From Geomonas paludis (GTDB taxonomy: Bacteria > Desulfobacterota > Desulfuromonadia > Geobacterales > Geobacteraceae): DNA of 64,000 bases. The position numbers were made by a program, and so were the translations under genes. Positions 13,403-52,314 of the stretch are shown piece after piece. The DNA lies in the NCBI RefSeq assembly GCF_014193585.1, contig NZ_BLXY01000001.1, positions 540,033 through 604,032 of the forward strand. Reading direction: 5' to 3'. The stretch's first letter is position 1; each line of letters begins with the position of its first letter. Below the pieces are notes generated by a model. That model was not told the DNA's origin and searched no databases. It worked only from the letters and a program-made list of their open reading frames with translations.

Positions 13403-16400
13403 ATGGACAGGCTGAGAACGACATTGGTAGCGTGCCTGGCAACGCTGGTGATCACGCTGTGGGGACTGGCTCCCCCGCCAGCACAGGCCATCGACGAAAC
13501 GAAAGTCCCTCATTACTTCGGACCGGCTCCCAACTGGGCGCTGAGCCCGCTGCCGACGGTCGACCCGGTCACGGGTGCTGCTTCCGGCGGCATCAAGAAG
13601 TTCGTGAACCGCTTGCCGGGTTTAGGCGAGGCTAACGCCAACGACCTGGGCCAGTATCTCCCGGTGGCAGTCGCCGACACCACCACCTATCCTGATGCCG
13701 ACTACTACGAGATCGGCGTCGTGCAGTACCGCCAGAAGATGCATTCCGACCTGCCGCCGACCCTGCTGCGCGGCTACGTTCAGCTTTCCACCACGGTGGT
13801 CCCCGGCCAGCAGGTGCCCCTCTCCAATGCCCTGGTCGATGGCAGCACCGTATCCATCGCCGGCTACACCGGCGTAACACCGCCCAACTACCTCGGACCC
13901 GTGATCGTTGCGCAGAAGGACCGCCCGGTGCGGATACTGTTCCGCAACCTGTTGCCGTCCGGCGCCGGCGGCGACCTGTTCCTGCCGGTCGACTCGACCA
14001 TGATGGGCTCCGGCATGGGCCCCATGTCGATGATGACTCCGATGGATTCCGGTACGGTCACCGACCAGGTGCGTAACCCGATGTGCACCGACGGGCCCAA
14101 GTCCGACATGTGCTTCAAGGACGACCGGGCCACCCTGCACCTGCACGGCGGCGTGACCCCGTGGATCAGCGACGGCACGCCGCACCAGTGGATCACCCCC
14201 AAAGACGAGATGACGCCCTGGCCTGCCGGCGTCAGCGTGAAGAACGTCCCCGACATGCCCGATCCGGGCCCCGGCGCCATGACCTTCTTCTACACCAACC
14301 AGCAGAGCGCGCGTCTCATGTTCTACCACGACCACTCCTGGGGCATCACCCGCCTCAACGTCTACGCCGGCGAGGCTGCCGGTTACCTGATCCAGGACCA
14401 GACCGAGCAGGCGCTGATCAGCAAGGGGCTCATCCCCGGGCCGGACAGCACCATCCCGCTCATCGTCCAGGACCGCACCTTCGTGCCGCAGGGCGACAAG
14501 GTCACCCGCACCGGGCAGCTCTACGACCAGGACCCGACCTGGGATGCCGACCGCTGGGGCGGCTTCGGCAACCTCTGGTACCACCACGTTTACATGCCGG
14601 CGCAAAACCCGGGCGACCCGAGCGGCATGAGCGCCTTCGGCCGCTGGATGTACGGCCCCTGGTTCTGGCCCCCGGCAAAACCGATGTACCCGCCGATCCC
14701 GAACCCGCGCTACAACATGGACCCGGCCACCGCCTTCACCACGCCGCTTCCCGTACCGTGCAACCTGAACGACCCGACCACCTGGCAGTACCAGACCGAC
14801 CCGTTCTGCGAGCCTGAGTTGATTCCGGGCACCCCGAACATCTCGGTGGGCATGGAGCAGTTCAACGACACGCCGGTGGTCAACGGCACCGTCTACCCGT
14901 ACACCACGGTCGATCCCAAGGCGTACCGCCTGCGCATCCTGAACGCCGCCAACGACCGCTTCTTCAACCTGCACATGTACGTTGCCGACGTCAACACCGC
15001 CAGCAGCTCCCTCAACGCCGAAGGCAACCCGATCGGCGGCACCGAAGTGGCCTTCAAGGCGGCCGAACTGGCAGCAGCGCAGCTCGACCCCGTCGTGTTC
15101 CCGACTCCGGACACCACCCTCTCCCCGAAAGGGCCGGACTGGATCCAGATCGGCAGCGAGGGCGGCTTCCTCCCGGCGCCGGCGGTGATCCCGCCGCAGC
15201 CCATCACCTGGATCACCGACCCCACCCGTTTCGACGTGGGTAACGTGGACCAGCACTCCCTGGCACTGGCGCCGGCCGAGAGGGCGGACGTGATCGTCGA
15301 CTTCTCCAAGTACGCCGGCCAGACGCTGATCCTCTACAACGACGCCCCGGCGGCCTACCCGGCCCGCGTGGCGAGCTACGACTACTACACCGGCGCCCCC
15401 GACCTCTCTCCGGTCGGCGCCCCCGGCGTAATCCCGGGCTACGGCCCCAACACCAGGACCGTGATGCAGATCAGGGTCAACCCGCTGCCCGATCCGACCG
15501 TGACCCCGGCACCCTTCGACCTCGCCGCGCTGCAGGCAGCGTTCGCGCACCAGGCCGACGGCTCCGGCGTCTTCGAATCCGGCCAGCATCCGATTATCGT
15601 CGGCCAGGCCGCCTACAACTCCGCCTACGGCACCAACTTCCCGGCCGCCGGCTACTGCAACGCACCGGGCAGCACCAAGCAGTCCTGCGACGGCTTCGCC
15701 CGCATCTCGGACCAGGGCGGCGACCTCTTCGGCTTCAACACGCTGGCCTCCCCGACCACGAAGCTGCAGATCCCGCTTGAGCCGAAGGCCCTGCACGACG
15801 AGATGAACGCGGTAGCCTTCGACGAGTTCGGCAGGATGACCGCCAACATCGGCATCGAAGCGGTCCCGGCTGCCCCGGGTGCCCAGAACGTCACACTCTA
15901 TCCGTACGTCAACCCGGCCACGGAACTGATCGACGGCACCAACCTGCCCAAGGGCGACCTGAACGTCACCCCGATCTCGACCCAGGACGGCACCCAGATC
16001 TGGAAGATCACCCACAACGGCGTCGATACCCACCCGATCCACTTCCACCTCTACGACGTGCAGGTGCTCAACCGCGTGACCTGGGACAACATCATCATCC
16101 CGCCGGATGCCAACGAGCTCGGCTGGAAAGACACCGTGCGCATCAGCCCGCTGGAGGACACCATCGTCGCCCTGAGGCCGATCATCCCGACGCTGCCGTT
16201 CGAAATCCCGAACAGCATCAGGCTGCTCAACCCGATGATGCCGGCCGGCTCCACCGCGATGTTCGAGCCTACCGATGTCTTAGGCAACCCGACCAATCCG
16301 ATCATCAACCAGCTGGTCAACTTCGGTTGGGAATACGTATGGCATTGCCACATCCTGAGCCACGAAGAGATGGACATGATGCGTCCGGTCTCCCTGGCGC

Positions 16401-17335
16401 TGCCGCCGAAGCAGGCTGACGGCCTCGCCTTCACCACCTCCGGTTCCGGCAACAAGGCGCGGCTCACCCTGACCTGGAACGACAACTCCATCACCGAGAC
16501 CTCGTTCCTGGTGCAGAAAACCACCAACGGCACCACCTGGACCAACGTCGGGACCATCGCGTCGCCTCTGGACCAGGCCAACACCATCGGCGTGAAGACC
16601 CTGCAGGACCCGGCGATCTACAACCCCAACGTGGTCGCCAAGTACCAGGTCGTCGCGCAGAACACCGTGGGGTACGGCGGGCAGATGCCGAGCCTGACCG
16701 TGAAGTCGGTTTCCGCACCGCTTCTCACCGGCACCGTACCGGCTGACCCGACCGACATGACGGCGACCCTGGTTGCCGGACCGAAGGTCACCATCACCTT
16801 CACCGACAATGCGATCACCGAGACCGGCTTCGTCCTCGAGCGCTCCGTCAACGGCGGCGCCTTCGTCCAGATCGCCGCGCTCCCGGCCCGCAGCAACACC
16901 GGCAACGTGAGCTACACCGACAACCTGACCCTGTCGGCTACCGACACCACCTACGTCTACCGCGTAGCAGCCGTGAACGTCGCCGGCCTCTCGGGGTACG
17001 CCGTGTCCCCGACCATCCTGCTCCCGGCACAGCCGGCGGCACCGGGGAACTTCACCGCCACCAACGGCGCCAACAGCGGCAACAGCAGGAGCGTGGTCCT
17101 CGATTGGCAAGACCTCTCCAGCAACGAAACCGGCTTCACCATCCAGAGAGCCACCAACTCGACCTTCAGCAAGGGGCTCAACAGCGTCACCGTCAATGCC
17201 GGGGTGACCACCCTGACCCAGACCGGGCTGGCCCGCAACACCAACTACTGGTACCGGATCAGGTCCAACAACGGCACTATCGTTTCCTCCGGATGGGTGA
17301 ACGCTGCGCCGTTCCCCATCACCACCAACCCGTAG
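13403..17335 (+). CDS. Multicopper oxidase with C-terminal fibronectin type III domains (OmpB/OmpC-like)
   Basis: 1310 aa with a Sec signal peptide ending PPPAQA. All four copper motifs are present: LHLHGG near 244, FYHDHSWG near 306, THPIHFH near 875 and WHCHILSHEEMDMM near 980, so type 1, 2 and 3 coppers are expected. A Met-rich segment (TMMGSGMGPMSMMTPM, about 200) may bind copper. Three fibronectin III-like repeats occupy about 1005-1310 (TWNDNSITETSFLVQ, TFTDNAITETGFVLE, DWQDLSSNETGFTIQ). The layout matches Geobacter OmpB/OmpC, secreted multicopper proteins linked to insoluble Fe(III)/Mn(IV) oxide reduction. A GTG 18 nt upstream is in frame, but AAGGAGG favours the ATG used here. Confidence 0.88.
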   Translation: MDRLRTTLVACLATLVITLWGLAPPPAQAIDETKVPHYFGPAPNWALSPLPTVDPVTGAASGGIKKFVNRLPGLGEANANDLGQYLPVAVADTTTYPDADYYEIGVVQYRQKMHSDLPPTLLRGYVQLSTTVVPGQQVPLSNALVDGSTVSIAGYTGVTPPNYLGPVIVAQKDRPVRILFRNLLPSGAGGDLFLPVDSTMMGSGMGPMSMMTPMDSGTVTDQVRNPMCTDGPKSDMCFKDDRATLHLHGGVTPWISDGTPHQWITPKDEMTPWPAGVSVKNVPDMPDPGPGAMTFFYTNQQSARLMFYHDHSWGITRLNVYAGEAAGYLIQDQTEQALISKGLIPGPDSTIPLIVQDRTFVPQGDKVTRTGQLYDQDPTWDADRWGGFGNLWYHHVYMPAQNPGDPSGMSAFGRWMYGPWFWPPAKPMYPPIPNPRYNMDPATAFTTPLPVPCNLNDPTTWQYQTDPFCEPELIPGTPNISVGMEQFNDTPVVNGTVYPYTTVDPKAYRLRILNAANDRFFNLHMYVADVNTASSSLNAEGNPIGGTEVAFKAAELAAAQLDPVVFPTPDTTLSPKGPDWIQIGSEGGFLPAPAVIPPQPITWITDPTRFDVGNVDQHSLALAPAERADVIVDFSKYAGQTLILYNDAPAAYPARVASYDYYTGAPDLSPVGAPGVIPGYGPNTRTVMQIRVNPLPDPTVTPAPFDLAALQAAFAHQADGSGVFESGQHPIIVGQAAYNSAYGTNFPAAGYCNAPGSTKQSCDGFARISDQGGDLFGFNTLASPTTKLQIPLEPKALHDEMNAVAFDEFGRMTANIGIEAVPAAPGAQNVTLYPYVNPATELIDGTNLPKGDLNVTPISTQDGTQIWKITHNGVDTHPIHFHLYDVQVLNRVTWDNIIIPPDANELGWKDTVRISPLEDTIVALRPIIPTLPFEIPNSIRLLNPMMPAGSTAMFEPTDVLGNPTNPIINQLVNFGWEYVWHCHILSHEEMDMMRPVSLALPPKQADGLAFTTSGSGNKARLTLTWNDNSITETSFLVQKTTNGTTWTNVGTIASPLDQANTIGVKTLQDPAIYNPNVVAKYQVVAQNTVGYGGQMPSLTVKSVSAPLLTGTVPADPTDMTATLVAGPKVTITFTDNAITETGFVLERSVNGGAFVQIAALPARSNTGNVSYTDNLTLSATDTTYVYRVAAVNVAGLSGYAVSPTILLPAQPAAPGNFTATNGANSGNSRSVVLDWQDLSSNETGFTIQRATNSTFSKGLNSVTVNAGVTTLTQTGLARNTNYWYRIRSNNGTIVSSGWVNAAPFPITTNP

Positions 17336-36241: not shown

Positions 36242-36396
36242 GGCCATACCCTCCACTACTTAAAAATCAGGCAAAGCCCCTAAAGGACTATGAGATTCTG
36301 AGATGGATCCAGTAGCCGAAAGCCCATGATTCAAGGTTGTGTGCCTTGAGATTGTTCTCCTTTTGCACGGGTTACAAAGAGGACCATTTTTATCTC

Positions 36397-36426
36397 ATTA
36401 GAGCTCGAAATGGTGCCGGTTGTCAA
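36397..36426 (-). promoter_or_regulatory. Sigma70-type promoter of the hybrid kinase, in duplicated region
   Basis: Minus strand TTGACA-N18-TCTAAT: a perfect -35 and a 5/6 -10. It is part of a ~100-bp sequence that has a second copy near 43.9 kb with TTGACA-N17-TCTAAT. Confidence 0.65.
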
Positions 36427-36497
36427 CAGCATCGTTGTCAGCGAAAACGCACGGAGATTTTCTATTGTCCGGTGGTCCGGGGGGGCATCACTGCCGG
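36397..36497. repeat. Duplicated upstream region, copy A
   Basis: Shares ATTAGAGCTC, TTGTCAAC, TGTCAG, AAAACGCA, ATTTTC and GGCATC-CTGCCGG blocks, in order and spacing, with 43878-43976. Same orientation. Confidence 0.8.
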
Positions 36498-36527: not shown

Positions 36528-38441
36528 TTAAAAGTTGAGGTTCACGCCCGCCGGGCGTATCAGGTCGAGGAGCTCCTGGAAGGCAGCGGTGACCTCCAGC
36601 GCGGCGCGCCGGTTGGAGCGGCCCTTCTGCTGGTCAGGCTCTTCTTGATCGGGCTCTTCGCCCCCCGGAGGCCTGACGTAGTCGGTATCCTCGTCTTGCA
36701 AGCCGTCGGCGCCCGGCAGACGCTCCTGGGGCGGCTCCACGTCGGCTGGGGCATCCTGGTTCGGGGGCTCCCCCTGGGGAGCAGCCTGCCGGCTAGCGGC
36801 CGCGGCGCCCGCCTGGCCGGCGTCCGGACCCGGGACAGGTTCGGGCTCGAAGGACTCTGCGGTCACCTGCTCGATCTCGTTGTTGGCCTGGTAGGTCACG
36901 TGGATGGCGCCTATTCCGTCCACCCTGATCTCCACCGGCTTGGAGGCGTTGTTGTAGGTAAAGGAGATCCGCCTGGTCTTCGAGTTCATCACCGCGATCC
37001 TGCCGTGAGCATCGTACTCCAGGGTCACCTTCCTGTCCTGGATCGGGTCCACCGCCTGCAGCAGGTTGCCGCGCTCGTCGTACTGGAACCGGGTTTCCTG
37101 CGCCTCGCCCGACGGGATGGCCGTCCGGCGTACCCACACTATCTTGCGTACCGTGGGGTGATAGCGTATCTCGGTCTTCTCGGTCGGAGTCTCCTTGAGG
37201 GTCACCTGGCCGTAGTCATCGTACTCGAACCTGGTGGTCTCACCGTTGCGGCTTATCCTGAGCGGCAGCCCCCCGGACTCGTTGTACTCCGTGTCGGTGC
37301 GGTCGCCATCGACATCGGTGATCATGCGCCTGGTGTAGGTTTGGCCAACACCGTTGACCCCGATAAAGTACTCGTAGATGCTCTTGGTGATCGGTTTCTC
37401 GGTGGCGTCAAGGACCTCGACCGATATCTTGTAGTGGGAACGGTCCTCGGGTGTGAAGTCGTAGTCGTAGCGGGTGAGGGTGCCGTCCCGGTCCTTCACG
37501 CTGCGGATGTTCTCCCCCTTCTCCATGCGGTGATACCGCATCTCCATGCTGGTCCCGTCCGAGTAGTGGATAGCCGTCATGTTGTGGCGGTTGTCGTACT
37601 CGAACAGGTACTTGTTGTCGTCCGTGTCCCGGCTCTCGATCAACTGGAACAGGTCGTTGTACCGGTAGGTGGCCTCGGTCCCCGCGCTGGTCTTGATCCT
37701 CTCCACCAGGCCGGCGCCGTTATAGGAGAAGGAAAAGCTGCGCCCGAAGTTGTCCTCCATGACGCCGATCCTCCCCTTGTCGTCCCGGGTAATGGCGATG
37801 AAGTTCCCGTTGCTGTCCGAGATCCGGACCAGGTTGCCCCGGCTGTCGTACTCTTCCTTTTTCCCGGAGCTGAAGGAGCGGGTGTAGCCGGTCCTGGTGC
37901 GCACGATGGACTGGTACCCGAAGCGCTGGCTGGTGAGGAGCGTGCCGACCGGGAGGCGGCGCGGCTCGAGCAGCCGCGCCTTGACGCACGCCTCCCACTC
38001 CGAGGTCCGGAACTCCGGGTCGTCCAGCAGCTTCTGCCGGTACTGCCGGGCATCGAACTCCTCCTTGGGCTGCTGGCTCCGGACGGCGACCAACCGGTTC
38101 ACCCCCTCGCTGACCGCCTGGGGGCTGAGGGTGGGGGGGGTGAAGACCGTCTCCGCGCCCCCCCCGAATTCATGCACCACCAGGGAGCCGTCGTACCCCA
38201 CCTTCAGGTACACCTCGAATTCAGAGCCCCAGCCATTCCCGAAGATGGACCTGAAGGAGGTCTTGGAGTTGAATACCCGCTCGATCTTGGGCTCGAGCCC
38301 TCCCGGAAAGGTGGCGTCGGTGTAGGCCATGAAGAAGTTGCCGTTCTTGAGGCTCACGTTGGCCCGGCAGGGAAGGGGAATGAGCAGCAGGAGCAGGGCC
38401 AGCAGCCCGGCGGCCTGCCTGATGCGCAGCGATCCGATCAT
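36528..38441 (-). CDS. Exported RHS/YD-repeat protein
   Basis: 637 aa. A signal peptide (GLLALLLLLIPLPCRA) precedes an N-terminal DUF6531-like segment (YTDATFPGGLEPKIERVFNS) and a run of YD repeats (YDSRGNLVRISDSNGNF, YDNRHNMTAIHYSDG, YDDYGQVTLKET, YDERGNLLQAVDP, YDAHGRIAVM). It is far shorter than polymorphic-toxin RHS proteins. It lacks the DPxGL-type core end motif and any toxin tip; instead it ends in an acidic, Pro/Gln-rich linker and a short C-terminal helix. Its ATG overlaps the stop of the WD40/caspase gene (ATGA), so the two are translationally coupled and probably work together in the periplasm or at the surface. Confidence 0.85.
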   Translation of the reverse strand: MIGSLRIRQAAGLLALLLLLIPLPCRANVSLKNGNFFMAYTDATFPGGLEPKIERVFNSKTSFRSIFGNGWGSEFEVYLKVGYDGSLVVHEFGGGAETVFTPPTLSPQAVSEGVNRLVAVRSQQPKEEFDARQYRQKLLDDPEFRTSEWEACVKARLLEPRRLPVGTLLTSQRFGYQSIVRTRTGYTRSFSSGKKEEYDSRGNLVRISDSNGNFIAITRDDKGRIGVMEDNFGRSFSFSYNGAGLVERIKTSAGTEATYRYNDLFQLIESRDTDDNKYLFEYDNRHNMTAIHYSDGTSMEMRYHRMEKGENIRSVKDRDGTLTRYDYDFTPEDRSHYKISVEVLDATEKPITKSIYEYFIGVNGVGQTYTRRMITDVDGDRTDTEYNESGGLPLRISRNGETTRFEYDDYGQVTLKETPTEKTEIRYHPTVRKIVWVRRTAIPSGEAQETRFQYDERGNLLQAVDPIQDRKVTLEYDAHGRIAVMNSKTRRISFTYNNASKPVEIRVDGIGAIHVTYQANNEIEQVTAESFEPEPVPGPDAGQAGAAAASRQAAPQGEPPNQDAPADVEPPQERLPGADGLQDEDTDYVRPPGGEEPDQEEPDQQKGRSNRRAALEVTAAFQELLDLIRPAGVNLNF

Positions 38442-41400
38442 TTCAGCACCTCCTCAGTCCTGCGGACGATCTCCCGCGCCAGCGTGGGCAGGGATTCCGC
38501 ACTGCCGCTCACGGTGAAGGAGGCCTTCTGGTTCTCCCCCTCCGTGAGGTATACCTGCACCGTGACGGCGCCGCCGTTTTTCTGGTAACTCCCGGAAAGG
38601 AAATAGGCGCCGGGAAGCTCCTCCGCGTCCACGTAGACGATGCCCGAGCCACGCGCGGCCGCGCCCTGCTCGCGCAGCTCGGCGTTGACCGACTGGCTGA
38701 GCCTGAGGGTGTCGGCGACCGGGGGGCGCGCCGAGAGGAAGGTGGCGCGCAGCACCATGGGACGGTCGCTTGCCAGGGGGATCCTCCCCTTGTCCTCGCT
38801 CAGCACCCGGCCGAAGTCGAAGCTGTTGCCGGCGGGGGACGCCTTGATCGGCTTCTGGATCCCCCCGATGGACCGGGCCAGTTCCGGGACCTTGTCCTCG
38901 GCGTGCTGGAAGAGCTTCTGCACGTCCACGTACTCCCCCTCACGAAGAGCGGCGCCCCGCATCCCCTCCAAAAGCGACCAGGTGAGCAGCCCCTGGCCGT
39001 AGCGGCTCGCCTCCAGGCTCACCCGGTCGGCGGCGGCTCCCATGAGGACGTGGAACCCGGTGCGGTCCTTGAGCCGGTCCAGGGCGCGCACCTGGCTGCT
39101 GGGGAGGTCGCGCTTCTCCACCAGCTTGGTGACGATCCCCCCCGCCGCGCAGGTGTCCAGCACCATGACCTGCTTGAGGGCGGGGATCTGCTTGATCCAT
39201 TCGGTGAGCTCGGTCGAGGAGATGCCGTACTGGGAGCGGACCGACGGGTCGGAGAGGTCGGTGCTCCGCGCCTCCCGGGCCAGGTAGTAGTAGTCGGCGC
39301 CGTCACCGCTTCCCGCCATGACGCCGTGGCCGGAGAGGTAGACCACCAGGATGTCCCCCGCCTTGAGCGACTTGGCTGCTGCCTTGAAAGCCTGCGCGAT
39401 CGCCTCGCGGGTAGGGAGCGCCGCGTCCCGGGCCTGGGGGTAGTCGGTCAGGAGCGTGACCTGGACCCGGTCCACGCCGAAGAGCCGGCGGCTCGAGACC
39501 CGGATCGCGTCCGCCATGTCGGAGGCGTCCTTGCCCGAGAAGGCCAGGTTCATCCCCGGGCCGGCGTACTGCGAGATCCCCACCACGATGGCGTGCAGGG
39601 AGACCTCCGCTGAGGCGGGTCGTTTGGCGGGGCGGAACGAGACCGGGGTCCCGCGGCTGGAGAGGTATCCCTCCTCGTTCCAGGCCACGACCTGGATGCT
39701 GTTCTCCTCCCCGGGCAGCAAGAGGGCCTCCGGTATCTCGAGGGGGATCTCGATGGACGGGCTCGCCGGATCGGCCTTGGCGCCGCGCGCGTCGGCGGCG
39801 ACCTCCTTGCCGTTGACCAGGATGCGCACCTTGCCGATGCCTCCGCCGCGGTTTTTGAGCGAGATGCTCGCCAGGCCGCTCCCGTCCTTCGGGATGGTCA
39901 CCCTCACCTGCGGGCTGAGACGTACCTGCTGGAGCGCGTCCACAGGGCGCAGCGCGTCGCTGTTCAGGCCGAGCACCTTGCTCAGGAGCCCCGGCTCGTA
40001 GTAGCGCTCCTTGAGCTGGGAGAGGTCGATGGTCTCGTTGCCTACCACCCAGTGCAGGCCGTTTATTTCCCCGCCGTTGGAGGCGTCGTACCTCCCTTTC
40101 GAGTCCAGCACCGCCCAACTGCCGTCGGCGAAGGAGAGAAGCCGCGCCAGCACCGTGCCGGTGGAGGTCCGCACCAACTGCGCCACTCCCTGGTCCCCCG
40201 GGATGACGGCAAACTCGCCGGACGGGTGGAAGCAGTCCTGGCGCAGCAGGGGGACCTCGCGCATCGGATAGTGGGCGATCTGGCGGCCGGTGGCGCAGTC
40301 CCAGAGTCTGATCCCGCTCAGGGTGCTCCCGGTCAGAAGGAAGCGGCCGTCCGGGGAGAATGCGAGGGTGTCGCTGTCCAGGGAGTCGGTGCCAAAGCTC
40401 AGCTTCTGGGCGCCCGTTGCGGGGTCCCAGAGGCGGATCGGGCTGCCGGGGGAGGCGCTGGCGACCAGGCCGCTCCCGGGGGCGAAGGCGAGCGCCACCA
40501 CGGCGCCCTCGTGCGGGCCGATCTGGCTTAACTTCTTGCCGGTCGCGGTATCCCAGACCAGCACGCTCCTGTCCAGGCTGCCGCTGGCGATGAGGCGGCC
40601 GTCGGCCGAAACGGCGACGGCGCTGATGCCGGCGCTGTGTCCGGTGAGGCGGGAGAGCTCGAGGCCGGAGGCTGCGTCCAGGAGGTAGAGGTTGCTGTCC
40701 TCCGAGCCGACCGCCACCCGACGGGCATCGAGGAAGGCTACCGGCTGGCCCCAGTCGAGGACCCGCTTCACCGTGGCGTTGAGGGTTCCCGCCAGGTTCC
40801 AAAGCCGCGCGGTGCCCTCGCGGTAGAGCGTCGCCAGGGTCTTGCCGTCGGGAGAGACCATGGCGTCGGAGAGGCTGCCGGCGGTGGCGGGGAGACTAGC
40901 GGCGAGCTTTTGAGTCTCAAGGTCCCAAAGGGCGATCTCGCCGGAGGCCCCGGTCACCACCACCTGCCTGCCGTCAGGTGTGCCGCGTCCGAAGGCCGGC
41001 CCCTTCTGCGTCAGCCGCACCACCTGCTCCCCGTACTTGGCGCCCAGCCCCCAAAGGTGCACCGCCCCGAACTCCCCCCCGGAAAGGAGGTACCTGCCGT
41101 CGGGGGTGAAGGAGAAGGGGGGGCGGGTGGCCGCGGTCCCCTGGAAGGAGCGGCGCTCCTTGCCGCTGGCCGGATCGACCACCCGGATCGTGCCGTCGTC
41201 AGGGGCGACCAGCAGCTCCCCCCCGTCGCCCAGTTGCGCCAGGGAGCGGATCTCGTGCCCGAGCCGCAGCGGCGTGGCCGTCAGCTTCATCGCCTCCAGG
41301 TCCACGATCTGCATGCCGCCGTCGGCGGTACCCACGGCGAGGGTCATCCCCTTGACGCCGTGCAGCACGGTGAGGCACTTCACCTTGTCCGGCATGGCGA

Positions 41401-43609
41401 CGTTGCCAAGGTCGGCCCCCGAGGCGAGGTGCCAGAGCCGGACCGTGCCGTCCTGGCCCCCGGTGGCCAGGAAGCGGCCGTCGGGGAGGAAGGCGAGGGC
41501 GGTGGAGGCGTCGAGGTGGCCGTAGAGGGTGGCCAGCCGCTTGCGGTTGCGCAGGTCCCAGAGGCGCACCGGACCGTTGCTCGAGCTGGTCGCTGCGAGG
41601 CTGCCGTCGGGGGAGAGCGCGAGGGCGGTCACCCCTGCCGCGGACGGCTCCGACAGGGAAGCGAGCCGCTTGCCGGCGGAGTCCCACAGGGTGACCTGGC
41701 CGTCCGAGCTCCCCGCCACGATGGTCCCGTCCGGCGTGAAGGCGAGGGCGGTGATCGGCGCGGCGTGGTCGAAAGAGCGGAACAGGTTGCCTGAGAGGCT
41801 CCAGAGCCGGATGGCGCCGTCATTGCCGCCGGTGGCCAGGGTGGTCCCGTCCGGCGCGAAGGCGACGCTCCAGACCTCGCCGTTTTGCTGCAGGCGGCGC
41901 AGCTCCTGGGCGTTGTCCACGCGCCAGATGAGGACGCTCCCCTCGGAGGCGCTGGCCAGGAAGGAGCCGTCGGCGGAGAGGGAGAGGGCGGTCACCCCCG
42001 CCCCGTGCCCCACCTGCGCCACCAGGTGCGCGGGGGCGTTCCCGGGTGCGGCGGGCGCCGCGGGGGGCTGGTGCGGCGCCGCGGAGGAGGAGGCCAGAAG
42101 CTGGGGGCGGTAGGACCAGGAGTATAGCCGGACGATCCGCTCCATTTCAGCGAGTTGCGCCGGCAGCCCGCCGCTACGGCGCAATATCGCCGCGTACTTC
42201 CTCAACTGCTGGTCCGAGGGCTTTGCGATCTTGAGAAGGAGCCGGTACTGCTCCTCGGCCTCCGTCAGTTTGCCTGCCGCAGCCAGCGCGTCCGCCCGGC
42301 GCTCCGCCAGCAGGACCGAATCGGGGTACTCCTGCGCGAACCGCTTCCACAGTGCCTCCAGGTCGGCCTGGTTCCCCTCCCGCTCGAGGACCTCGCGAGC
42401 GGAGTCGTAGAACTCCGAGCTCCTCTCCTCGAGCGTCGCCGCCAGGGCGCGGTAGGTCTTGCGGGCCTCCTCGTCGCGGTGGGCGTAGTGCAGCGCCTTG
42501 AGCAGGCGGACCTGGTGCTGTGGCTTGGGGGCGCGGCGCACCAGGTCCCGGGCCAGCTCCAGGGCGTCCAGGTATCTCTTGGACGAGTCCTCCAGGTCTA
42601 CCCTGGCCGCCAGCAGCCCCTCGTGGTCGGGATACATCGCCCCGTACTGATCGAGGAGCTGGACCGCCTTCTCGGTGTTGATTTCCTTGAGCACGGTATA
42701 GTAGCGCAGCTTCGCCTCGGCCTCCGGCTGCTCGGTGTTGTAGGCGACGCTCAGCGCCAGGAGCTGCTGCGCCTCCTGGTCCTTTTTCAGCCTGACGAGC
42801 GATTCGGCGTGGTTCAACCAGCGGAAATAGAACGGGAAGGAGCGGTAGGACGCTTCGAAGGCCTTCAGGGCCTCCTGGTGATCGCCGCGCCCGGCCAGGT
42901 GTATGCCCAGGAAACGCAGGGCAAACGTGTCCTGGGGGTAGCGCTCCAGCCACTCCCTGGCGCATTGCACCATGAAATCCTCGTCGAGGGGGCGCTTGGA
43001 CAGCATGTGCAGCAGGAAGCGGGCAGCGGCAGTCCCCTCCAGGAACTTCTCGTGCTCCAGTTTCTGCTGCAGGCGCGTCCTCATCCTCTCGTCGTACTCG
43101 CACAGGTTGAAAGCGACCCAGGAGAACCAGAACACGTCGGGGGCCTTCTTGAGCATGGCGATGGTGTAGCTGAAACATGCCTCGTGCTGGGCGGAGTCGC
43201 GCGCGGCCCAGAACAGGTACTCGAGCGCCACCGGGTCGGGCCCATCCTCCGCGCCCCGGGCCGGAAATTCGGTGAGCATCCTGTGGTTCAGGTTCTGGTC
43301 GCTCAGGTAAAAAATGCGCGGCAGGTGGCCGAGCCCCTTGGCCAGTGCCGCGTCACTGCGCGTCTTCGCGATTTCGGCCATCTTTTCGGGAGGGCCCGCG
43401 ACGTTGACCCATACCAAAGGGGCCATGACGTGGGGCGCCGGGCTGCGCAGGTCCGCCTCGACCAGGCGCAAAAGCTCATCCCGCTTCCCCTCACGCATCA
43501 GGGCGGACCACTGTACCAGGCGGGGGTCGTCGAAGACCTTGCGGTCCTCGCCCCACACGGGAAACACCACGGTGAGGATCATCAGCACTGCGAGAAAGGC
43601 ATGTCTCAT
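38438..43609 (-). CDS. Exported TPR-WD40-caspase-like protein
   Basis: 1723 aa. Signal peptide (AFLAVLMILTVVFPVWG), an alpha-helical TPR-like region to about 500, about 14 divergent WD40 repeats from about 530 to 1130 (enough for two seven-blade propellers), an Ig-like linker (ISLKNRGGGIGKVRILVNGK), then a C14 caspase-like domain with the dyad in YLSGHGVM (His ~1428) and VLDTCAAGG (Cys ~1487). A ~100-residue C-terminal module follows (LSQSVNAELREQ...EELPGAYFLSGSY), reminiscent of FlgO/TolB-N. ATG with AGGAGG 5 nt upstream is preferred over the GTG embedded in that site. Shares its architecture with the protein at 48.7 kb. Confidence 0.88.
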   Translation of the reverse strand: MRHAFLAVLMILTVVFPVWGEDRKVFDDPRLVQWSALMREGKRDELLRLVEADLRSPAPHVMAPLVWVNVAGPPEKMAEIAKTRSDAALAKGLGHLPRIFYLSDQNLNHRMLTEFPARGAEDGPDPVALEYLFWAARDSAQHEACFSYTIAMLKKAPDVFWFSWVAFNLCEYDERMRTRLQQKLEHEKFLEGTAAARFLLHMLSKRPLDEDFMVQCAREWLERYPQDTFALRFLGIHLAGRGDHQEALKAFEASYRSFPFYFRWLNHAESLVRLKKDQEAQQLLALSVAYNTEQPEAEAKLRYYTVLKEINTEKAVQLLDQYGAMYPDHEGLLAARVDLEDSSKRYLDALELARDLVRRAPKPQHQVRLLKALHYAHRDEEARKTYRALAATLEERSSEFYDSAREVLEREGNQADLEALWKRFAQEYPDSVLLAERRADALAAAGKLTEAEEQYRLLLKIAKPSDQQLRKYAAILRRSGGLPAQLAEMERIVRLYSWSYRPQLLASSSAAPHQPPAAPAAPGNAPAHLVAQVGHGAGVTALSLSADGSFLASASEGSVLIWRVDNAQELRRLQQNGEVWSVAFAPDGTTLATGGNDGAIRLWSLSGNLFRSFDHAAPITALAFTPDGTIVAGSSDGQVTLWDSAGKRLASLSEPSAAGVTALALSPDGSLAATSSSNGPVRLWDLRNRKRLATLYGHLDASTALAFLPDGRFLATGGQDGTVRLWHLASGADLGNVAMPDKVKCLTVLHGVKGMTLAVGTADGGMQIVDLEAMKLTATPLRLGHEIRSLAQLGDGGELLVAPDDGTIRVVDPASGKERRSFQGTAATRPPFSFTPDGRYLLSGGEFGAVHLWGLGAKYGEQVVRLTQKGPAFGRGTPDGRQVVVTGASGEIALWDLETQKLAASLPATAGSLSDAMVSPDGKTLATLYREGTARLWNLAGTLNATVKRVLDWGQPVAFLDARRVAVGSEDSNLYLLDAASGLELSRLTGHSAGISAVAVSADGRLIASGSLDRSVLVWDTATGKKLSQIGPHEGAVVALAFAPGSGLVASASPGSPIRLWDPATGAQKLSFGTDSLDSDTLAFSPDGRFLLTGSTLSGIRLWDCATGRQIAHYPMREVPLLRQDCFHPSGEFAVIPGDQGVAQLVRTSTGTVLARLLSFADGSWAVLDSKGRYDASNGGEINGLHWVVGNETIDLSQLKERYYEPGLLSKVLGLNSDALRPVDALQQVRLSPQVRVTIPKDGSGLASISLKNRGGGIGKVRILVNGKEVAADARGAKADPASPSIEIPLEIPEALLLPGEENSIQVVAWNEEGYLSSRGTPVSFRPAKRPASAEVSLHAIVVGISQYAGPGMNLAFSGKDASDMADAIRVSSRRLFGVDRVQVTLLTDYPQARDAALPTREAIAQAFKAAAKSLKAGDILVVYLSGHGVMAGSGDGADYYYLAREARSTDLSDPSVRSQYGISSTELTEWIKQIPALKQVMVLDTCAAGGIVTKLVEKRDLPSSQVRALDRLKDRTGFHVLMGAAADRVSLEASRYGQGLLTWSLLEGMRGAALREGEYVDVQKLFQHAEDKVPELARSIGGIQKPIKASPAGNSFDFGRVLSEDKGRIPLASDRPMVLRATFLSARPPVADTLRLSQSVNAELREQGAAARGSGIVYVDAEELPGAYFLSGSYQKNGGAVTVQVYLTEGENQKASFTVSGSAESLPTLAREIVRRTEEVLK

Positions 43610-43877: not shown

Positions 43878-43906
43878 ATTAGAGCTCTGATCAGGCGTAT
43901 TGTCAA
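43878..43906 (-). promoter_or_regulatory. Sigma70-type promoter of the caspase/RHS operon, in duplicated region
   Basis: Minus strand TTGACA-N17-TCTAAT, ideal spacing. It lies about 270 nt upstream of the start codon, leaving a long leader in which I see no gene. Confidence 0.65.
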
Positions 43907-43976
43907 CGGCAACCGTGTCAGAAAAAACGCAGGAAAATTTTCCATTTCCCAGCACTGCGGGAGGCATCGCTGCCGG
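43878..43976. repeat. Duplicated upstream region, copy B
   Basis: Direct, imperfect copy of 36397-36497, about two-thirds identical by eye, with conserved blocks at the promoter and at the distal GGCATC-CTGCCGG end. Confidence 0.8.
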
Positions 43977-44200: not shown

Positions 44201-44713
44201 TAGAGGTAGACATGGATCACTTCTGGTGATGTGTGTCTGATCGTGGATATAGCCGCTCCGCGGCAGGTGCGCATTTGTAGGGTCGATGGGTGCTTTTGAA
44301 TTGAAAGCCGTTAACTAAGCGTGGTATCTTGCCGGTCGCGTGTGGCAAATCCATGAAAACCTGTGGAGCCGATGAGCCGACTAAACCTGGGCAGAAGGGC
44401 ACCCGTCGGCTGTTGGCAAAATATGGCGCCGCGCTCCTGTGCGTCCGGTACAGATATGATGAAGAGGCCGGAGAAAACCTGACGACAGATGGGACCCAGA
44501 GCAAAAGGTATGGCGGGTAAACTACGGATCGATCAAGACCGATTCAGCAATCGTGGACCGGGATTGTTCCAGAGTAAAAGGAAAAGTCAGACTCCGCCAT
44601 TATGTCACCTATATAGGGGATGAGTGGTCACTTATATAGCCAGCTATATAAGGCACAAATCATCTATATACGGATACCAATCAACAACGAGTTGGAAGAT
44701 TAAAGGAAAAACC
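44201..44713. other. AT-rich intergenic stretch with TATATA inverted repeats
   Basis: About 510 bp without a convincing gene; composition falls from GC-rich to AT-rich. Four TATATA cores occur between 44608 and 44672. A perfect 10-bp inverted repeat CTTATATAGC/GCTATATAAG with a 2-nt loop lies at 44631-44652, directly before the HEPN-like gene, and may be its operator. Confidence 0.6.
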
Positions 44714-45406
44714 ATGGTTGTTCTAAACTGGGACGTTCACAGATGGCAAACGGAATTTGAGTTGGATAATTTGAAGGACTATTTCCACCTCATGGAAGCC
44801 CAGTTTCAGGCAGCAATGGACGCAGAAAAGGAAAAATTGCAGCAGTGGCCACCGCCTAACCTGAATGAAGAAGAATTTGCAATTTGGGAGTCAGAAGTTG
44901 AATTCTTCAGAGAGCGATATGAATTCGATTTCCCATCAAAGATCAGGTATTCATATGTGGTGCTACTTTACATCACACTTGAAGATAGACTAAGAGCTGT
45001 ATGTGACGAAATCGCAAAACGCAGAAAGCTTACTATCACAGAGAACAATCTCAAAGGTTCGGTAATTGAGAGGACAAAACTTTTTTTGACACGGGTAGCA
45101 TCGGTGCCTGTTCAGGACACAGATGCTTGGCAATGGCTTAATGACTTTCAAAAAGTTAGGGACTGTATTATTCATGCCAATGGTTGCACCGCACAATCAA
45201 GGGATAAGAAGAGACTTATAGAACTGGCAAGAAAGGACATTGGCTTATCACTTTTAGTCGAAAACATTGTAATCGATCAGAAATATTACCAGACAACAAT
45301 GCTAATGATACAAAGATGTTTTCAGACCATCTTCGAGTCAGCTGGTTTCGGCCCATCAACTATAGTGCCGATAATTCCTGATGATGCTGGAGATAGCAGC
45401 GCATAA
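44714..45406 (+). CDS. HEPN-like protein, probable cassette gene
   Basis: 230 aa, all-alpha and AT-rich in codon use, unlike its neighbours. The segment YVVLLYITLEDRLRAVCDEI and, near residues 149-154, RDCIIH (R-x4-H) inside FQKVRDCIIHANG match the HEPN superfamily, whose RX4-6H motif is the RNase active site in many defence and toxin proteins. An upstream in-frame ATG would add 30 residues over the inverted repeat; the ATG after AAAGGAAAA is preferred. The stop codon lies inside a structure resembling an integron attC site. Nuclease activity is inference; non-catalytic HEPN proteins exist. Confidence 0.6.
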   Translation: MVVLNWDVHRWQTEFELDNLKDYFHLMEAQFQAAMDAEKEKLQQWPPPNLNEEEFAIWESEVEFFRERYEFDFPSKIRYSYVVLLYITLEDRLRAVCDEIAKRRKLTITENNLKGSVIERTKLFLTRVASVPVQDTDAWQWLNDFQKVRDCIIHANGCTAQSRDKKRLIELARKDIGLSLLVENIVIDQKYYQTTMLMIQRCFQTIFESAGFGPSTIVPIIPDDAGDSSA

Positions 45407-45476
45407 AGGCGGTTCCAACACGGACAGTGGACCGGTCGCGACAAAGCCCGCGCCGGTCATCGCCGACCCGTTATGC
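45401..45476. other. attC-like site (integron cassette recombination site)
   Basis: Three nested complementary blocks: GCATAA at 45401-45406 with TTATGC at 45471-45476; GGCG at 45408-45411 with CGCC at 45461-45464; GACCGGTCGCG at 45430-45440 with CGCGCCGGTC at 45449-45458, leaving an unpaired T. The right end reads GTTATGC, an accepted R' box variant, and the left box overlaps the stop codon of the preceding gene, as in gene cassettes. No integrase gene is in the window, so this is a candidate. Confidence 0.5.
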
Positions 45477-45499
45477 AAAGAAAATAGAAGGAGTCGCAA

Positions 45500-46099
45500 A
45501 TGAGTATTATGAAGCTTCTTGACCCCATCCTTGAAGTTTGGCTACCGACAAAATGGTCAAGATGGGCAGTTGGGGTAACAATACTATTAGCAACATTCGC
45601 CACGCGTCTCCCGGAGTTTCTGCCATTAGCAGGCTATACATTACTTGACCAACAAAAATTATTAGTACAGATACTTGCGCCAACATTGATATGTCTCATA
45701 GGAACATTTATTGTTCTGAATTTAGTAGTGCGGCATTCGAAGTCGCTTAAAGAAACGCACTCAAATGAAATTGAAGAACTAAAAAAAACGTACAACAAAC
45801 AACAAGATAAACCTGAAAAGTTAACGCCTGTTGTTGACGAAAGCTTCGTGACCCAAAGTGTAGTCCTTGACGGCAAAAAATTTATTAGATGCGAATTTGA
45901 TAGGTGCTCCCTTGTATTCAATGGTAGTGCCAATTTTGGGCTGGAACACTGCAACTTCACGGCTCCTAAACTAATTTTTGGGGACAGTGCTGGCATCACC
46001 ATGTTTCAAATAAGTAAAATGAGTGGCGACCCTGCTTTTGCCAAAATGATTGAAATGACAATCAATGAATATAAAACCGACAAAAAACAGGACAAATAA
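45500..46099 (+). CDS. Two-TM protein with pentapeptide-like C-terminal domain
   Basis: 199 aa, AT-rich like the HEPN-like gene. Two TM helices at about 20-40 and 52-74 (LLVQILAPTLICLIGTFIVL), a Lys/Glu coiled linker, then a small beta-strand repeat region (FIRCEFDRCSLVFNGSANFG, then LEHCNFTAPKLIF) that resembles a short pentapeptide/beta-helix ladder. GAAGGAG 7 nt upstream. It begins 24 nt after the attC-like site, so it may be the next cassette. No closing attC is evident after its stop. Function unknown; membrane effectors of two-gene defence modules can look like this, but there is no direct evidence. Confidence 0.6.
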   Translation: MSIMKLLDPILEVWLPTKWSRWAVGVTILLATFATRLPEFLPLAGYTLLDQQKLLVQILAPTLICLIGTFIVLNLVVRHSKSLKETHSNEIEELKKTYNKQQDKPEKLTPVVDESFVTQSVVLDGKKFIRCEFDRCSLVFNGSANFGLEHCNFTAPKLIFGDSAGITMFQISKMSGDPAFAKMIEMTINEYKTDKKQDK

Positions 46100-48744: not shown

Positions 48745-51700
48745 ATGAAAATCCAGCACATTATCCCTCTTTTGTTTTGCAGCCTGATTTTTTATGGCAG
48801 CGTATCCGCCGCGGCTCCGCTTAAGCCTCACGTCGGCAACGGGTTGCGCCTGCAGATCCAGTTGGGGCATTCGGGCGGAGTCGACAGCGTCGCCTTCTCC
48901 CCCGACGGCCGGCGGATACTGACGGGGAGCAATGATCATACCGCGAAGCTCTGGGACGCCAGGACGGGCCAGGAAATCCGCGCCTTCCTGGGACATTCGC
49001 ACAACGTCAATAGCGTTGCCTTCTCTCCTGACGGTCGCCGGGTGCTGACGGGGAGCAGTGACCATACCGCGAGGCTCTGGGACACCGGGACGGGTCAGGA
49101 AATACGTGCCTTCCAAGGGCATCCTTCTGGTGTCACCAGCGTCGCCTTCTCCCCTGACGGCCGCCTGATACTGACGGGGGGCGGCGACAACACCGTGAAG
49201 CTCTGGGACACGGAGACCGGTCAGGAGGTTCGTGCCTTCCAGGGGCATTCGGGCTGGGTCCACTGCGTCGCCTTTTCCCCGGATGGCCGGTCGGTACTGA
49301 CGGTGAGCCTAGACGAGACCGCGAGACTCTGGGACACCGGGACGGGTCGTGAAATCCGTACCTTCCTGGGGCATTCGGACGGGGTCATCAGTGCCGCCTT
49401 CTCCCCCGACGGCGGGCGGATACTGACGGGTAGCTTGGACCAAACCGCGAAGCTCTGGGACGTCGAGACGGGTCGTGAGATCCGGTCCTTCAGTGGGCAT
49501 TCGTCCGGTGTCAAAGGCGTCGCCTTCTCCCCTGACGGCCGGCGGGTACTGACGGGGAGCTGGGACCACACCGCGAAGCTCTGGGACGCTGAAACGGGTC
49601 GTGAGATACGTGTCTTCCAAGGGCATTCAAACAATGTCAACAGCGTCGCCTTCTCTCCCGATGGCAGGCAGCTACTCACCGGTAGCGATGACCACACAGC
49701 GAAACTCCTGGATGCTGAAACGGGTCGTGAGATACTTGCCCTCCAAGGGCATTCAGGCAGTGCCAGCAGCGTCGCCTTCTCTCCCGATGGCGGGCGGCTG
49801 CTGCATGGGGGCAATCTCTGGGACGCTGAGACGGGTCGGGAGATCAGCGCCTTCCGGCATGCGTGGCTCGACGGTGCCACCTTCTCCCCCGACGGCCAGC
49901 AGATACTTTCTGGGAACTGGGAGAACACCGCGAAGCTCTGGGACACGGAAACGGGCCGGGAGATCCGCGCCTTCCAGGGGCATTCGGCATATGTCCTTTG
50001 CGCTGTCTTCTCACCTGACGGCCGGCGGGTACTCACAGGAAGCTCGGACCAAAGCGCTAAGCTCTGGGAGACGGGGACGGGCCGGGAAATCCGTGCCTTC
50101 CGCGGGCATGCGTCTGCTGTCGACAGCGTCGCTTTCTCCCCTGACGGCCGGCGGGTGCTGACGGGGAGCTTAGACAATGACGCGAAGCTCTGGGATGCTG
50201 AGACGGGGCAGGAGATCCGTACCTTCCGGGGACATTCGAAATATGTCAACAGCGTCGCCTTCTCTCCTGACGGTCGCCGGGTGCTGACGGGAAGCTCGGA
50301 CAATACGGCGAAACTCTGGGATGCTGAGACGGGTCAGGAGATCCGTACCTTCCAGGGGCATTCGGGCTGGGTCCACAGCGTCGCCTTCTCTCCTGACGGT
50401 CGCCGGGTGCTGACGGGAAGTGGGGACACTACGGCGAAACTCTGGGATGCTGAGACGGGTCGGGAGATCCGCGCCTTCCGGGGGCATTCGTATTTGGTCG
50501 AGAAGGTAGCCTTCTCCCCGGATGGCCGGCTGGTAATGACGGGGAGTTGGGACACTACCGCGAAGCTCTGGGACGCTGAGACGGGCCGGGAGCTTGCGAC
50601 ACTGGTTTCCTTCACCGACGGCACCTGGGCGGTGGTCGACCAGGAAGGGCGCTTCGATGCCAGCAGCGGCGGTGAGGTGAAAGGACTGCACTGGGTCTAC
50701 AAGGACGAGCCTATCGCACTGTCCCAGTTCAAGGAGCGCTACTACGAGCCCGCGCTTTTGGCCAAGATCATGGGCTTCAACAGGGAGCCGCTGCGCAAGG
50801 TCGATTCCTTTGCCTCGGTAGCCCTTTTCCCGGAAATGAAGGTCGATCCGCCATCGGAGCACAGCTCTATCGCCACAATCCACCTGAAAAACCGTGGCGG
50901 CGGCATCGGCCGGGTGCGGGTGCTGGTGAACGGCAAGGAGATCGCCGCCGATGCCCGCGGCCCCAAGCCCGATCCCGCTGCCGGGTCCTTAGAGCTACCG
51001 GTGGAGATACCGGAATCGCTCCTCAAGCCCGGCGAAGAAAACAGCATCGAGGTGCTGGCCTGGAACGGCGAGGGGTACCTCTCCAGCCGGGGCAACCCGA
51101 TCCGGTTCCGCGCTCCGCCTGCCGTCAAGATCGAGCCACCTACCCTGTACGCCATCGTCGCCGGCGTCTCCAGATACGCGAACCCAGTCATGAACCTGAC
51201 CTTCTCCGGCAAGGACGCCTCCGACATGGCCCAGGCGCTTTCCGTCTCAGCCAGGCGGCTCTTCGGGGCTGAGAAGGTGCATATCTCTCTCCTTTCCGAC
51301 TACCCCTCACACTCACAAAGCGAAGATGCCCTCAAAAGCCTGCCCCTTACCCGCGAAAACCTGGAAAACGCTTTCCGCCAGGCGCACAAAGCCAAGGCTG
51401 GCGACGTATTGGTCATCTACCTGGCTGGCCACGGCGTCATGAGCCCCGGCGAAGGCTCCGACTATTACTATCTTACTTCCGAGGCCAGAACCACGGACCT
51501 CTCCGATCCGGTCGTCCGCAGGCAATCAGGCGTCTCCAGCAGCGAGCTGACCGAGTGGATCAAGTTGATCCCAGCCCTTAAGCAGGTCATGGTGATGGAT
51601 ACCTGCGCGGCAGGAGGGGCTGTTGCGAAACTGGTGGAAAAACGTTCCCTTTCCAGCGACCAGGTCCGCTCCCTTGACCGTCTCAAGGACCGTACCGGCT

Positions 51701-52314
51701 TCCATGTGCTGATGGGAGCCGCCGCCGACAAGCAGAGTTTGGAAGCGACCCAGTACGGCCAGGGGCTACTCACCTGGGCCATCCTGCAAGGAATGAAGGG
51801 GGCTGCCCTGCGGGACGACCAGTTTGTCGATGTGCAAAAACTTTTCCAGCACGTGGCCGACGAGGTGCCCCGTCTGGCCAGGTCTGTTGGCGGCATCCAG
51901 AAACCGCTGATCGCCTCCCCCAGTGGCAGCAGCTTCGACATCGGCCAGTTGACCGCTACGGACAAATCACTAATTCCACTAGCCACCGTTAAGCCCATGA
52001 TTCTGAAAGCAAGCTTTCAGGATGAAGTGGACTATGATGACACCATCTCACTTGGAAAAGAGGTCAACAGCCAACTGCGGGAACAGTCGGCTCGGTTGCG
52101 CGGGGATCATCTGGTCTATGTAGATGCCGACGAACTGCCGGGGGCCTGGCGCATGTCTGGTCGGTACGCGCTTGATGGAGCCACGGTAACGGTGAAGGTG
52201 GTTATGCGTGAAGGCAAGGTACGAAAGGATTTCAATATAATAGGCAAGGCTGATGATCTGCCTGGTCTGGCAGTCGCCATACTGGATCGGGCGCAAGGAT
52301 TGTTGCGAGAATAG
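48745..52314 (+). CDS. Exported 14-repeat WD40-caspase-like protein
   Basis: 1189 aa from an ATG with GGAGG 8 nt upstream. Signal peptide (IIPLLFCSLIFYGSVSAAA), then 14 WD40 repeats of 42 residues (about 42-615) with consensus GHS-VNSVAFSPDGRRVLTG and AKLWDAETGREIRAF, i.e. two seven-blade propellers. Repeat 8 lacks five residues and repeat 9 two. Then an Ig-like linker (HLKNRGGGIGRVRVLVNGKE), a C14 caspase-like domain with YLAGHGVM (His 896) and VMDTCAAGG (Cys 954), and the same ~100-aa C-terminal module as the 38.4-43.6 kb protein. It lacks that protein's TPR region and RHS partner. Probably cleaves an unknown envelope substrate when the propellers bind a trigger. Confidence 0.88.
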   Translation: MKIQHIIPLLFCSLIFYGSVSAAAPLKPHVGNGLRLQIQLGHSGGVDSVAFSPDGRRILTGSNDHTAKLWDARTGQEIRAFLGHSHNVNSVAFSPDGRRVLTGSSDHTARLWDTGTGQEIRAFQGHPSGVTSVAFSPDGRLILTGGGDNTVKLWDTETGQEVRAFQGHSGWVHCVAFSPDGRSVLTVSLDETARLWDTGTGREIRTFLGHSDGVISAAFSPDGGRILTGSLDQTAKLWDVETGREIRSFSGHSSGVKGVAFSPDGRRVLTGSWDHTAKLWDAETGREIRVFQGHSNNVNSVAFSPDGRQLLTGSDDHTAKLLDAETGREILALQGHSGSASSVAFSPDGGRLLHGGNLWDAETGREISAFRHAWLDGATFSPDGQQILSGNWENTAKLWDTETGREIRAFQGHSAYVLCAVFSPDGRRVLTGSSDQSAKLWETGTGREIRAFRGHASAVDSVAFSPDGRRVLTGSLDNDAKLWDAETGQEIRTFRGHSKYVNSVAFSPDGRRVLTGSSDNTAKLWDAETGQEIRTFQGHSGWVHSVAFSPDGRRVLTGSGDTTAKLWDAETGREIRAFRGHSYLVEKVAFSPDGRLVMTGSWDTTAKLWDAETGRELATLVSFTDGTWAVVDQEGRFDASSGGEVKGLHWVYKDEPIALSQFKERYYEPALLAKIMGFNREPLRKVDSFASVALFPEMKVDPPSEHSSIATIHLKNRGGGIGRVRVLVNGKEIAADARGPKPDPAAGSLELPVEIPESLLKPGEENSIEVLAWNGEGYLSSRGNPIRFRAPPAVKIEPPTLYAIVAGVSRYANPVMNLTFSGKDASDMAQALSVSARRLFGAEKVHISLLSDYPSHSQSEDALKSLPLTRENLENAFRQAHKAKAGDVLVIYLAGHGVMSPGEGSDYYYLTSEARTTDLSDPVVRRQSGVSSSELTEWIKLIPALKQVMVMDTCAAGGAVAKLVEKRSLSSDQVRSLDRLKDRTGFHVLMGAAADKQSLEATQYGQGLLTWAILQGMKGAALRDDQFVDVQKLFQHVADEVPRLARSVGGIQKPLIASPSGSSFDIGQLTATDKSLIPLATVKPMILKASFQDEVDYDDTISLGKEVNSQLREQSARLRGDHLVYVDADELPGAWRMSGRYALDGATVTVKVVMREGKVRKDFNIIGKADDLPGLAVAILDRAQGLLRE
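48870..50590. repeat. 126-bp coding tandem repeats (WD40)
   Basis: The WD40 units are highly similar at DNA level: GTCGCCTTCTC-CCTGACGG and GCGAAGCTCTGGGA recur every 126 bp, including synonymous sites. This implies recent duplication or gene conversion. Confidence 0.9.

Follow-up and report, generated by a model that had tools for sequence, protein, structure and literature searches.

A TPR-WD40-caspase gene coupled to a gene of the Bd0109 family of YD-repeat proteins in Geomonas paludis

What could join a caspase-like protease to a short YD-repeat protein, when the two genes overlap and both products look exported? The question is raised by a locus of Geomonas paludis, located in the 64,000-nucleotide stretch of DNA analyzed here (the window). 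To our knowledge, the targets of exported caspases are largely unknown; the pair ties one such protease to a defined partner. Pairs made by a caspase and a YD/RHS-repeat protein are not described among the matches listed in the open-access literature, as judged by titles and starts of abstracts. The reading preferred here, held with slightly less than even confidence, is that the two genes encode a two-protein extracytoplasmic protease module, in which a YD shell may gate the caspase or be cut by it.

Layout of the gene pair and domains of its products

The TPR-WD40-caspase gene (38438..43609, minus strand) encodes 1723 aa, and is followed on the same strand by the YD-repeat gene, called YD1 (36528..38441, 637 aa). 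As stated in a preliminary description of this DNA, the two genes are coupled: the caspase stop (38438) overlaps the YD start (38441) in the tetranucleotide ATGA (38438..38441, minus strand, by eye). An alternative caspase start, GTG at 43615, is less likely, because a Shine-Dalgarno-like AGGAGG (43620-43615, by eye) sits just 5' of the ATG at 43609. A second Shine-Dalgarno-like AGGAGG (38454-38449, by eye) precedes the YD start. Both products are apparently exported: the signal peptides assigned to them in the same description correspond to Sec-signal-like N-termini, recognized by eye in the caspase (residues 1–20; 43550..43609, minus strand; MRHAFLAVLMILTVVFPVWG-ED) and in the YD protein (..LLALLLLLIPLPCRA-NV).

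The pair is bracketed by a 78-nt imperfect direct repeat (36420-36497 and 43900-43976, 74%), each copy leading into TTGACA-N17/18-TCTAAT. The upstream copy (43900-43976) forms, with TTGACA-N17-TCTAAT (43906-43878), a candidate promoter of the pair (43878..43976, minus strand). The downstream copy (36420-36497), with TTGACA-N18-TCTAAT (36426-36397), spans 36397..36497 on the minus strand, and precedes a gene at 36256 (CheB-CheR-kinase-like, by eye). The hexamers were all found by eye; those of the upstream copy are absent from the output of the promoter scanner, which demands A at the second position. The repeat may be a duplicated promoter common to the pair and the gene at 36256, or mark the ends of a cassette. 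A low-GC island (44624-46099) adjoins the caspase gene, the GC content of which is 0.69; it includes two ORFs at 0.39–0.41, with third-position GC of ~0.4 and no Pfam match.

Three regions are distinguished in the 1723-aa protein. The TPR region (residues ~23–500; 42110..43543, minus strand) has weak Pfam TPR matches, all below cut-off (best E 8e-6), the WD40 propeller region (residues ~530–1150; 40160..42022, minus strand) strong ones. The caspase domain (Peptidase_C14, residues ~1335–1600; 38810..39607, minus strand) is detected by PF00656 in the C-terminal 404 aa (E 4e-14, 53.2 bits, cut-off 21.4), and the caspase dyad is present (His1428, codon 39326-39328; Cys1487, codon 39149-39151). Profile and dyad together assign the protein, at sequence level, to Peptidase C14. 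The model for EACC1-associated caspases (NF047832) scores 71 bits, below its curated cut-off of 140. The structure predicted for the caspase module is poor (mean pLDDT 52.9), and gives no active-site geometry. Among known anti-phage defence models, the caspase of the pair matches the generic caspase model only (E 1e-10) and the YD protein none; comparison of the pair with PADLOC and PHROGs returned nothing specific.

Export of a caspase, regarded as unusual in the preliminary description, turns out to be ordinary. Signal-like N-termini are seen by eye in each of the C14 proteins detected in the G. paludis genome (6/6), and a 2012 survey of 671 caspase-family sequences lists 98 membrane and 30 extracellular proteins, as well as WD40 domains in 73 sequences (PMC3501461). 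One of the six, a second signal-bearing WD40-caspase whose WD40 repeats look near-regular by eye, resides in the window 5 kb from the pair (48745..52314, plus strand; probable ATG at 48745, in a frame open from 48691). Upstream of it lie two genes, one with a DUF2157 domain and one of 401 aa with no Pfam match.

The YD protein matches the Pfam models RHS_repeat (1e-25) and DUF6531 (1e-10). In its AlphaFold model (mean pLDDT 82.2, pTM 0.73), YD-type strands extend over residues 26–530, interrupted by a helical insertion (107–154), and are followed by a disordered stretch (539–601, pLDDT <50) and a C-terminal helix (603–631). The DUF6531 and YD barrel part (residues 28–530; 36852..38360, minus strand) resembles the initial portion of a T6SS Rhs shell: with Z 28.2 and 2.5 A for 412 aligned residues, the model matches residues 360–785 of a 1037-residue Rhs chain, or about the first 40% of the core chain. 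Because the match is limited to these residues, the protein may be viewed as roughly a half-shell. As foreseen, the RHS protein may be a substrate, a shell or a surface ligand; a shell-type fold is backed by the model.

The assignment to RHS polymorphic toxins was considered and discarded, as the protein lacks the Rhs core end, the autoprotease motif and a C-terminal toxin tip. No NCBIfam model of the Rhs-associated core matched it up to E 1, the only hit being a partial RHS_core far under cut-off, and the DPxG autoprotease motif is absent. Profiles and motif search agree on this point with the earlier claim that there is neither a toxin tip nor a typical core end, and that the protein may be something other than a conventional polymorphic toxin. 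A split toxin, in which the caspase would be an effector delivered outside the cell and the YD shell its carrier or guard, is most improbable. Caspase domains do occur in exported polymorphic toxins, as release peptidases or C-terminal toxins, in some cases with RHS repeats (PMC3482391), and the caspase ends of the two known pairs differ in subtype, both of which speak for this reading. Yet the YD protein has neither core nor DPxG motif, no delivery marker or immunity gene was recognized among the neighbours examined, the other caspases of the genome stand apart from its two YD genes, and a half-shell would be too short to enclose a protein of 1700 aa.

Between barrel and C-terminus the YD protein carries a disordered insert rich in Pro, Ala, Glu, Gly, Asp and Gln (~residues 531–610; 36612..36851, minus strand), followed by a conserved end made by the C-terminal helix and the motif PAGVxLxF (residues 603–637; 36531..36635, minus strand; alignment and AlphaFold model). 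The spacing from the barrel to the C-terminal motif is 112 residues, versus 33 in all 23 measured homologues, including that of G055, the second genome in which the pair is found; the count leaves out L081, where the C-terminal motif is not in frame, and L088 and L093, where the pattern was missed. Among the proteins compared, this is the sole one with a 79-residue disordered insert before the conserved helix. By alignment, the departure from 33 residues appears to be an insertion into an otherwise matching end, and the spacing is not taken as family-defining.

The insert invites a different reading, fairly unlikely on balance, in which the YD protein would be a gasdermin-like substrate: the caspase would cut the linker and free the C-terminal helix, activating or opening the shell. 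The segment is disordered, lies directly before the conserved helix, and Arg or Lys residues occur in its region at 551, 574, 590, 606 and 608; orthocaspases cut after basic residues (PMC6426788). Adjacent protease-substrate gene pairs are known for bacterial gasdermins, which are controlled by cleavage of a C-terminal inhibitory part (PMC9079055). However, G055 and 22 other measured homologues keep the invariant spacing and have no linker, and no gasdermin is found among the Pfam matches of the YD protein.

The Bd0109 family and its usual neighbours

In Bdellovibrio, the predatory switch is under the control of Bd0109. Named genomes were scanned, and 28 relatives of the window YD protein were identified (38–47% identity, best segment), and the protein could be aligned end to end with 18 homologues at 39–49% identity. 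According to the record labels, 23 of the 28 are of the Bdellovibrionota type (Bdellovibrionales, Bacteriovoracaceae, Oligoflexia); the remaining ones are labelled Deltaproteobacteria (3), Lysobacteraceae and Proteobacteria. As the other members, the window protein is signal-bearing (by eye), falls in the range of roughly 550–640 aa, combines DUF6531 with YD repeats, and aligns over its whole length.

The termini of Bd0109, decoded from published cloning primers (mature start LVDMKNANYS, end PATAELYL), served as a stand-in for the HD100 protein. They rank first among 541 and 543 alignment positions, respectively, at the mature N-terminus and the C-terminus of the family, where the window protein reads NVSLKNGNFF and PAGVNLNF. 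The same scores were reached by 17 (N-terminus) and 736 (C-terminus) of 200,000 random peptides. An N-terminal VxxKNxN and a C-terminal PAxxxL are common to the window protein and primer-decoded Bd0109. As both termini score best at both family ends, the window protein is a member of the Bd0109 family. The RHS family, treated as an unknown in the preliminary description, is therefore that of the Bdellovibrio hit locus, as denoted by the 28 relatives, the primer-decoded termini, and the Tad context.

TadC lies directly upstream of the YD relative in all 28 loci, and is preceded by a CpaE-CpaF fusion in 27, the contig ending there in the remaining one. The neighbours in locus L075 are recognized by Pfam as ParA-type plus T2SSE, and T2SSF. 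In Bdellovibrio the Tad operon corresponds to bd0109-bd0119, with bd0108 alongside (PMC3818213, PMC4267844, PMC5430801). The gene order around the 28 relatives, read from sequence, is that of the hit locus. Primers for Bd0110 and Bd0111 found no match in L080 with up to 3 mismatches, and HD100's own hit locus was accordingly not located.

A caspase profile gave 0 matches in the 431,646 nt flanking the 28 relatives, and the same profile detects 6/6 other caspase loci; for this reason the caspase does not accompany the Bd0109 family in general. A different neighbour is regularly met. A heuristic scan for proteins of 50–120 aa, exported-looking, with at least 1 Cys after residue 20, and starting at most 500 nt downstream, found such a small protein beside the YD relative in 25/25 full-length loci, against a background of 107/2000 random windows and 7/199 control ORFs. 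Cut or broken genes (L097, L100, L101) were excluded from this count, as from the tree described below.

Bd0108 fits this description: it is exported and disordered, features a CXXC, and binds Bd0109 at ~45 uM (PMC4267844). Bd0109 has been proposed to encapsulate the disordered Bd0108 (PMC3818213, PMC4267844). Deletion of bd0109 yielded no mutants, the signalling mode of Bd0109 is given as unknown, and an RHS protein with neither protease nor tip is called a puzzle in the same papers (PMC3818213, PMC4267844). Next to the window pair, the heuristic scan detected no gene for a small partner. In G055, a small exported-looking Cys protein is encoded just upstream of the YD gene, and two similar ones (by eye) within 12 kb. 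The three, at 4487-4807, 14287-14631 and 16405-16725 of the G055 locus (L074), are signal-bearing and Cys-rich, and feature a SRSREMNISDFVS core (by eye).

Membership in the Bd0109 family could mean that the YD protein regulates a pilus as in Bdellovibrio, with the caspase replacing Bd0108 as regulator, and G. paludis does encode CpaE and CpaF homologues elsewhere (contigs C5 and C3). This is quite unlikely. No TadC or CpaF homologue is found at E 1e-5 in the window, in the G. paludis contig 2 locus described below (L009) or in the G055 loci, and the search of the whole G055 genome gave no more than two weak matches to the ATPase, both partial (38% and 31%, spanning ~160–170 query residues). 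As G055 keeps the pair with no recognized Tad ATPase, a Tad-pilus role is not to be assumed. One region of G. paludis (G000:C3:259402-261489, L115) resembles a CpaE-CpaF fusion (39%), contains a single TGA and a single TAA, and is either two adjacent genes or a decayed gene.

The pair in a second genome

The genome of G. paludis (G000) measures 5.1 Mb; its order is represented by 141 genomes, its genus by 19. A YD profile made from two sequences matches 24/141 genomes of the order at E <=1e-10, and proteins of the Bd0109 type are restricted to G000 and G055. Elsewhere in the order this profile, which includes the second YD protein described below, finds only partial matches, in open frames of 290 to 1668 aa, none stronger than 3e-22. 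The TPR profile, at E 1e-10, also matches G000 and G055 only (2/141). G055 comes from another family, and the YD and TPR families are adjacent in both genomes. The neighbourhood search suggested earlier as a check for a conserved association thus came out in its favour, either family being held by 2/141 genomes, side by side in both.

In G055 the order is swapped: the YD gene comes first, and the caspase gene follows after 19 nt. The YD1 proteins share 47% identity, and the caspase relative can be aligned almost from end to end (32%, 1680 columns). As the families stay adjacent despite the swapped order, the linkage has survived rearrangement and, by these comparisons, is old. Each pair is located upstream of a UbiD/UbiX cluster that is the same in both genomes (five genes match, in conserved order, at 40–60% identity), at a distance of ~9 kb in the window and ~19 kb in G055. 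In the tree, the window and G055 YD1 proteins are sisters (98/88), and the other 25 lie beyond a weaker branch (80/64). Long-branch flags fall on G055 YD1 and both YD2 rows, and the labels Lysobacteraceae (L085), Pseudomonadota (L102) and Myxococcota (L082, L087) are those of the records. The sister position of the YD1 proteins and the shared place, in two genomes, suggest one evolutionary origin of the linkage.

That two exported proteins merely share an operon by chance, with no functional link, is very unlikely. Only two paired genomes are known, and elsewhere the YD family is mainly found next to Tad genes; yet both families occur in the same 2/141 genomes, adjacency is kept despite the swapped order, and in the window stop and start overlap. 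Chance neighbourhood is made improbable by the co-occurrence of the YD and TPR families in two genomes. A mobile or viral origin was likewise considered: among plasmid and phage records, none matches as much as 80% of the YD protein at a single place, and viral contigs hold 0 relatives of the YD protein and 0 of the TPR region.

When 395 genomes were sampled across the phylum, the YD protein was found, at a limit of E 1e-30, in G. paludis only, and the TPR domain in G. paludis and, as a weak, partial match at a contig end, in G203; sensitivity is lower here, because mostly 3 candidates per genome were scored. None of the 28 YD-bearing genomes has a full TPR match; 2 weak matches were seen.

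Conservation differs along the paired caspase proteins: window and G055 are 37% identical in the TPR region, 34% in the WD40 region, and only 25% (over 174 residues) in the caspase domain. Among six proteins compared, the window caspase domain is closest to the second WD40-caspase of the window (69%), the G055 caspase end to a third caspase of G. paludis (37%). Judging from these identities, YD and TPR-WD40 would be the constant part of the pair, and the caspase end differs in subtype, as if exchanged.

G. paludis and G055 both hold a second, shorter YD protein (YD2, 35% between genomes) and a DsbC-like protein (36%), located near the pair in G055, on another contig in G. paludis. In the latter, YD2 faces a 711-aa signal-bearing caspase; the two are convergent, and therefore not one operon. 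The surrounding locus (L009 1095-15077, contig 2) is a cluster of signal-bearing products, which includes the DsbC-like protein, YD2, the 711-aa caspase with a sub-threshold DUF4384, an M48-type metallopeptidase and an HtrA-type protease (the last two by eye).

Proposed mechanism and comparison with known systems

The pairing of a Bd0109-type YD protein with a TPR-WD40-caspase is well supported by the sequence comparisons. Several features speak for the extracytoplasmic protease module favoured at the outset: coupled genes, signal-like N-termini, conserved adjacency, Bd0109 membership, differing caspase ends, and a shell-like YD model. On the other side, the pair is known from two genomes only, cutting in the disordered insert is not a general mechanism because G055 has no such insert, the scan revealed no small partner gene next to the window pair, the G055 small protein is no more than a candidate counterpart of Bd0108, and YD2 and the adjoining caspase of G. 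paludis are convergent.

For the pair we infer the following mechanism. After export, the caspase and YD proteins would form a complex, in which the TPR-WD40 part docks on its YD partner. An extended disordered peptide would be held by the YD barrel, as proposed for Bd0109 with Bd0108: in G055 perhaps the small Cys-rich protein encoded just upstream of the YD gene, in the window perhaps the YD protein's own 79-residue insert. As long as the complex is intact, the caspase or its substrate site would stay closed; a signal from the envelope would open it. The freed caspase would then cut, most simply within the disordered segment or close to it, and either the product of this cut or the released C-terminal helix would be the output. 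The notion of the insert as a small partner fused in cis is a guess based on a single case.

A bolder proposal, unlikely as a whole, is that of an extracytoplasmic protease switch: the exported caspase would cleave a disordered peptide caged by a Bd0109-type half-shell, and the hit locus and the pair would be two outlets of one ancient module made by a shell and a disordered client, the client being fused in cis in the window. In any case, the pair places a Bd0109 relative beside a protease encoded in trans, outside the Bdellovibrio setting, and offers a second system for testing partner, client and output of the family.

Among known systems, the hit locus (bd0108-bd0109-bd0110-bd0111) likewise encodes a signal-bearing YD protein, Bd0109, of ~550 aa, co-transcribed with its neighbours in Bdellovibrio (PMC3818213, PMC4267844); here overlapping genes are read from the sequence. 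The two proteins have matching N-terminal motif and C-terminal end, and neither toxin tip nor autoprotease. In contrast to the hit locus, the partner in the window is a caspase, no Tad genes or small partner are found alongside, and the YD protein has the extra 79-residue disordered insert.

T6SS Rhs and other RHS polymorphic toxins share the YD shell fold predicted for the window protein, which differs in having no core end or tip, and in covering roughly the first 40% of the Rhs chain. In polymorphic toxins the caspase domain may reside inside the toxin (PMC3482391), whereas caspase and YD protein are separate genes in the window. Bacterial WD40/TPR metacaspases commonly feature the domain combination of the window caspase; unlike them, the latter is linked to a Bd0109-type protein, and the caspase end differs between paired relatives.

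In bacterial gasdermin-caspase operons, a caspase-like protease is similarly found beside a partner with a C-terminal part perhaps controlled by cleavage (PMC9079055). The partner in the window is a YD barrel instead, and both window proteins look exported. Gasdermins act from inside the cell. The nearest logic to the pair would thus seem to be that of the bacterial gasdermin-caspase pair, although the partner differs and the compartment here would lie outside the cytoplasm.
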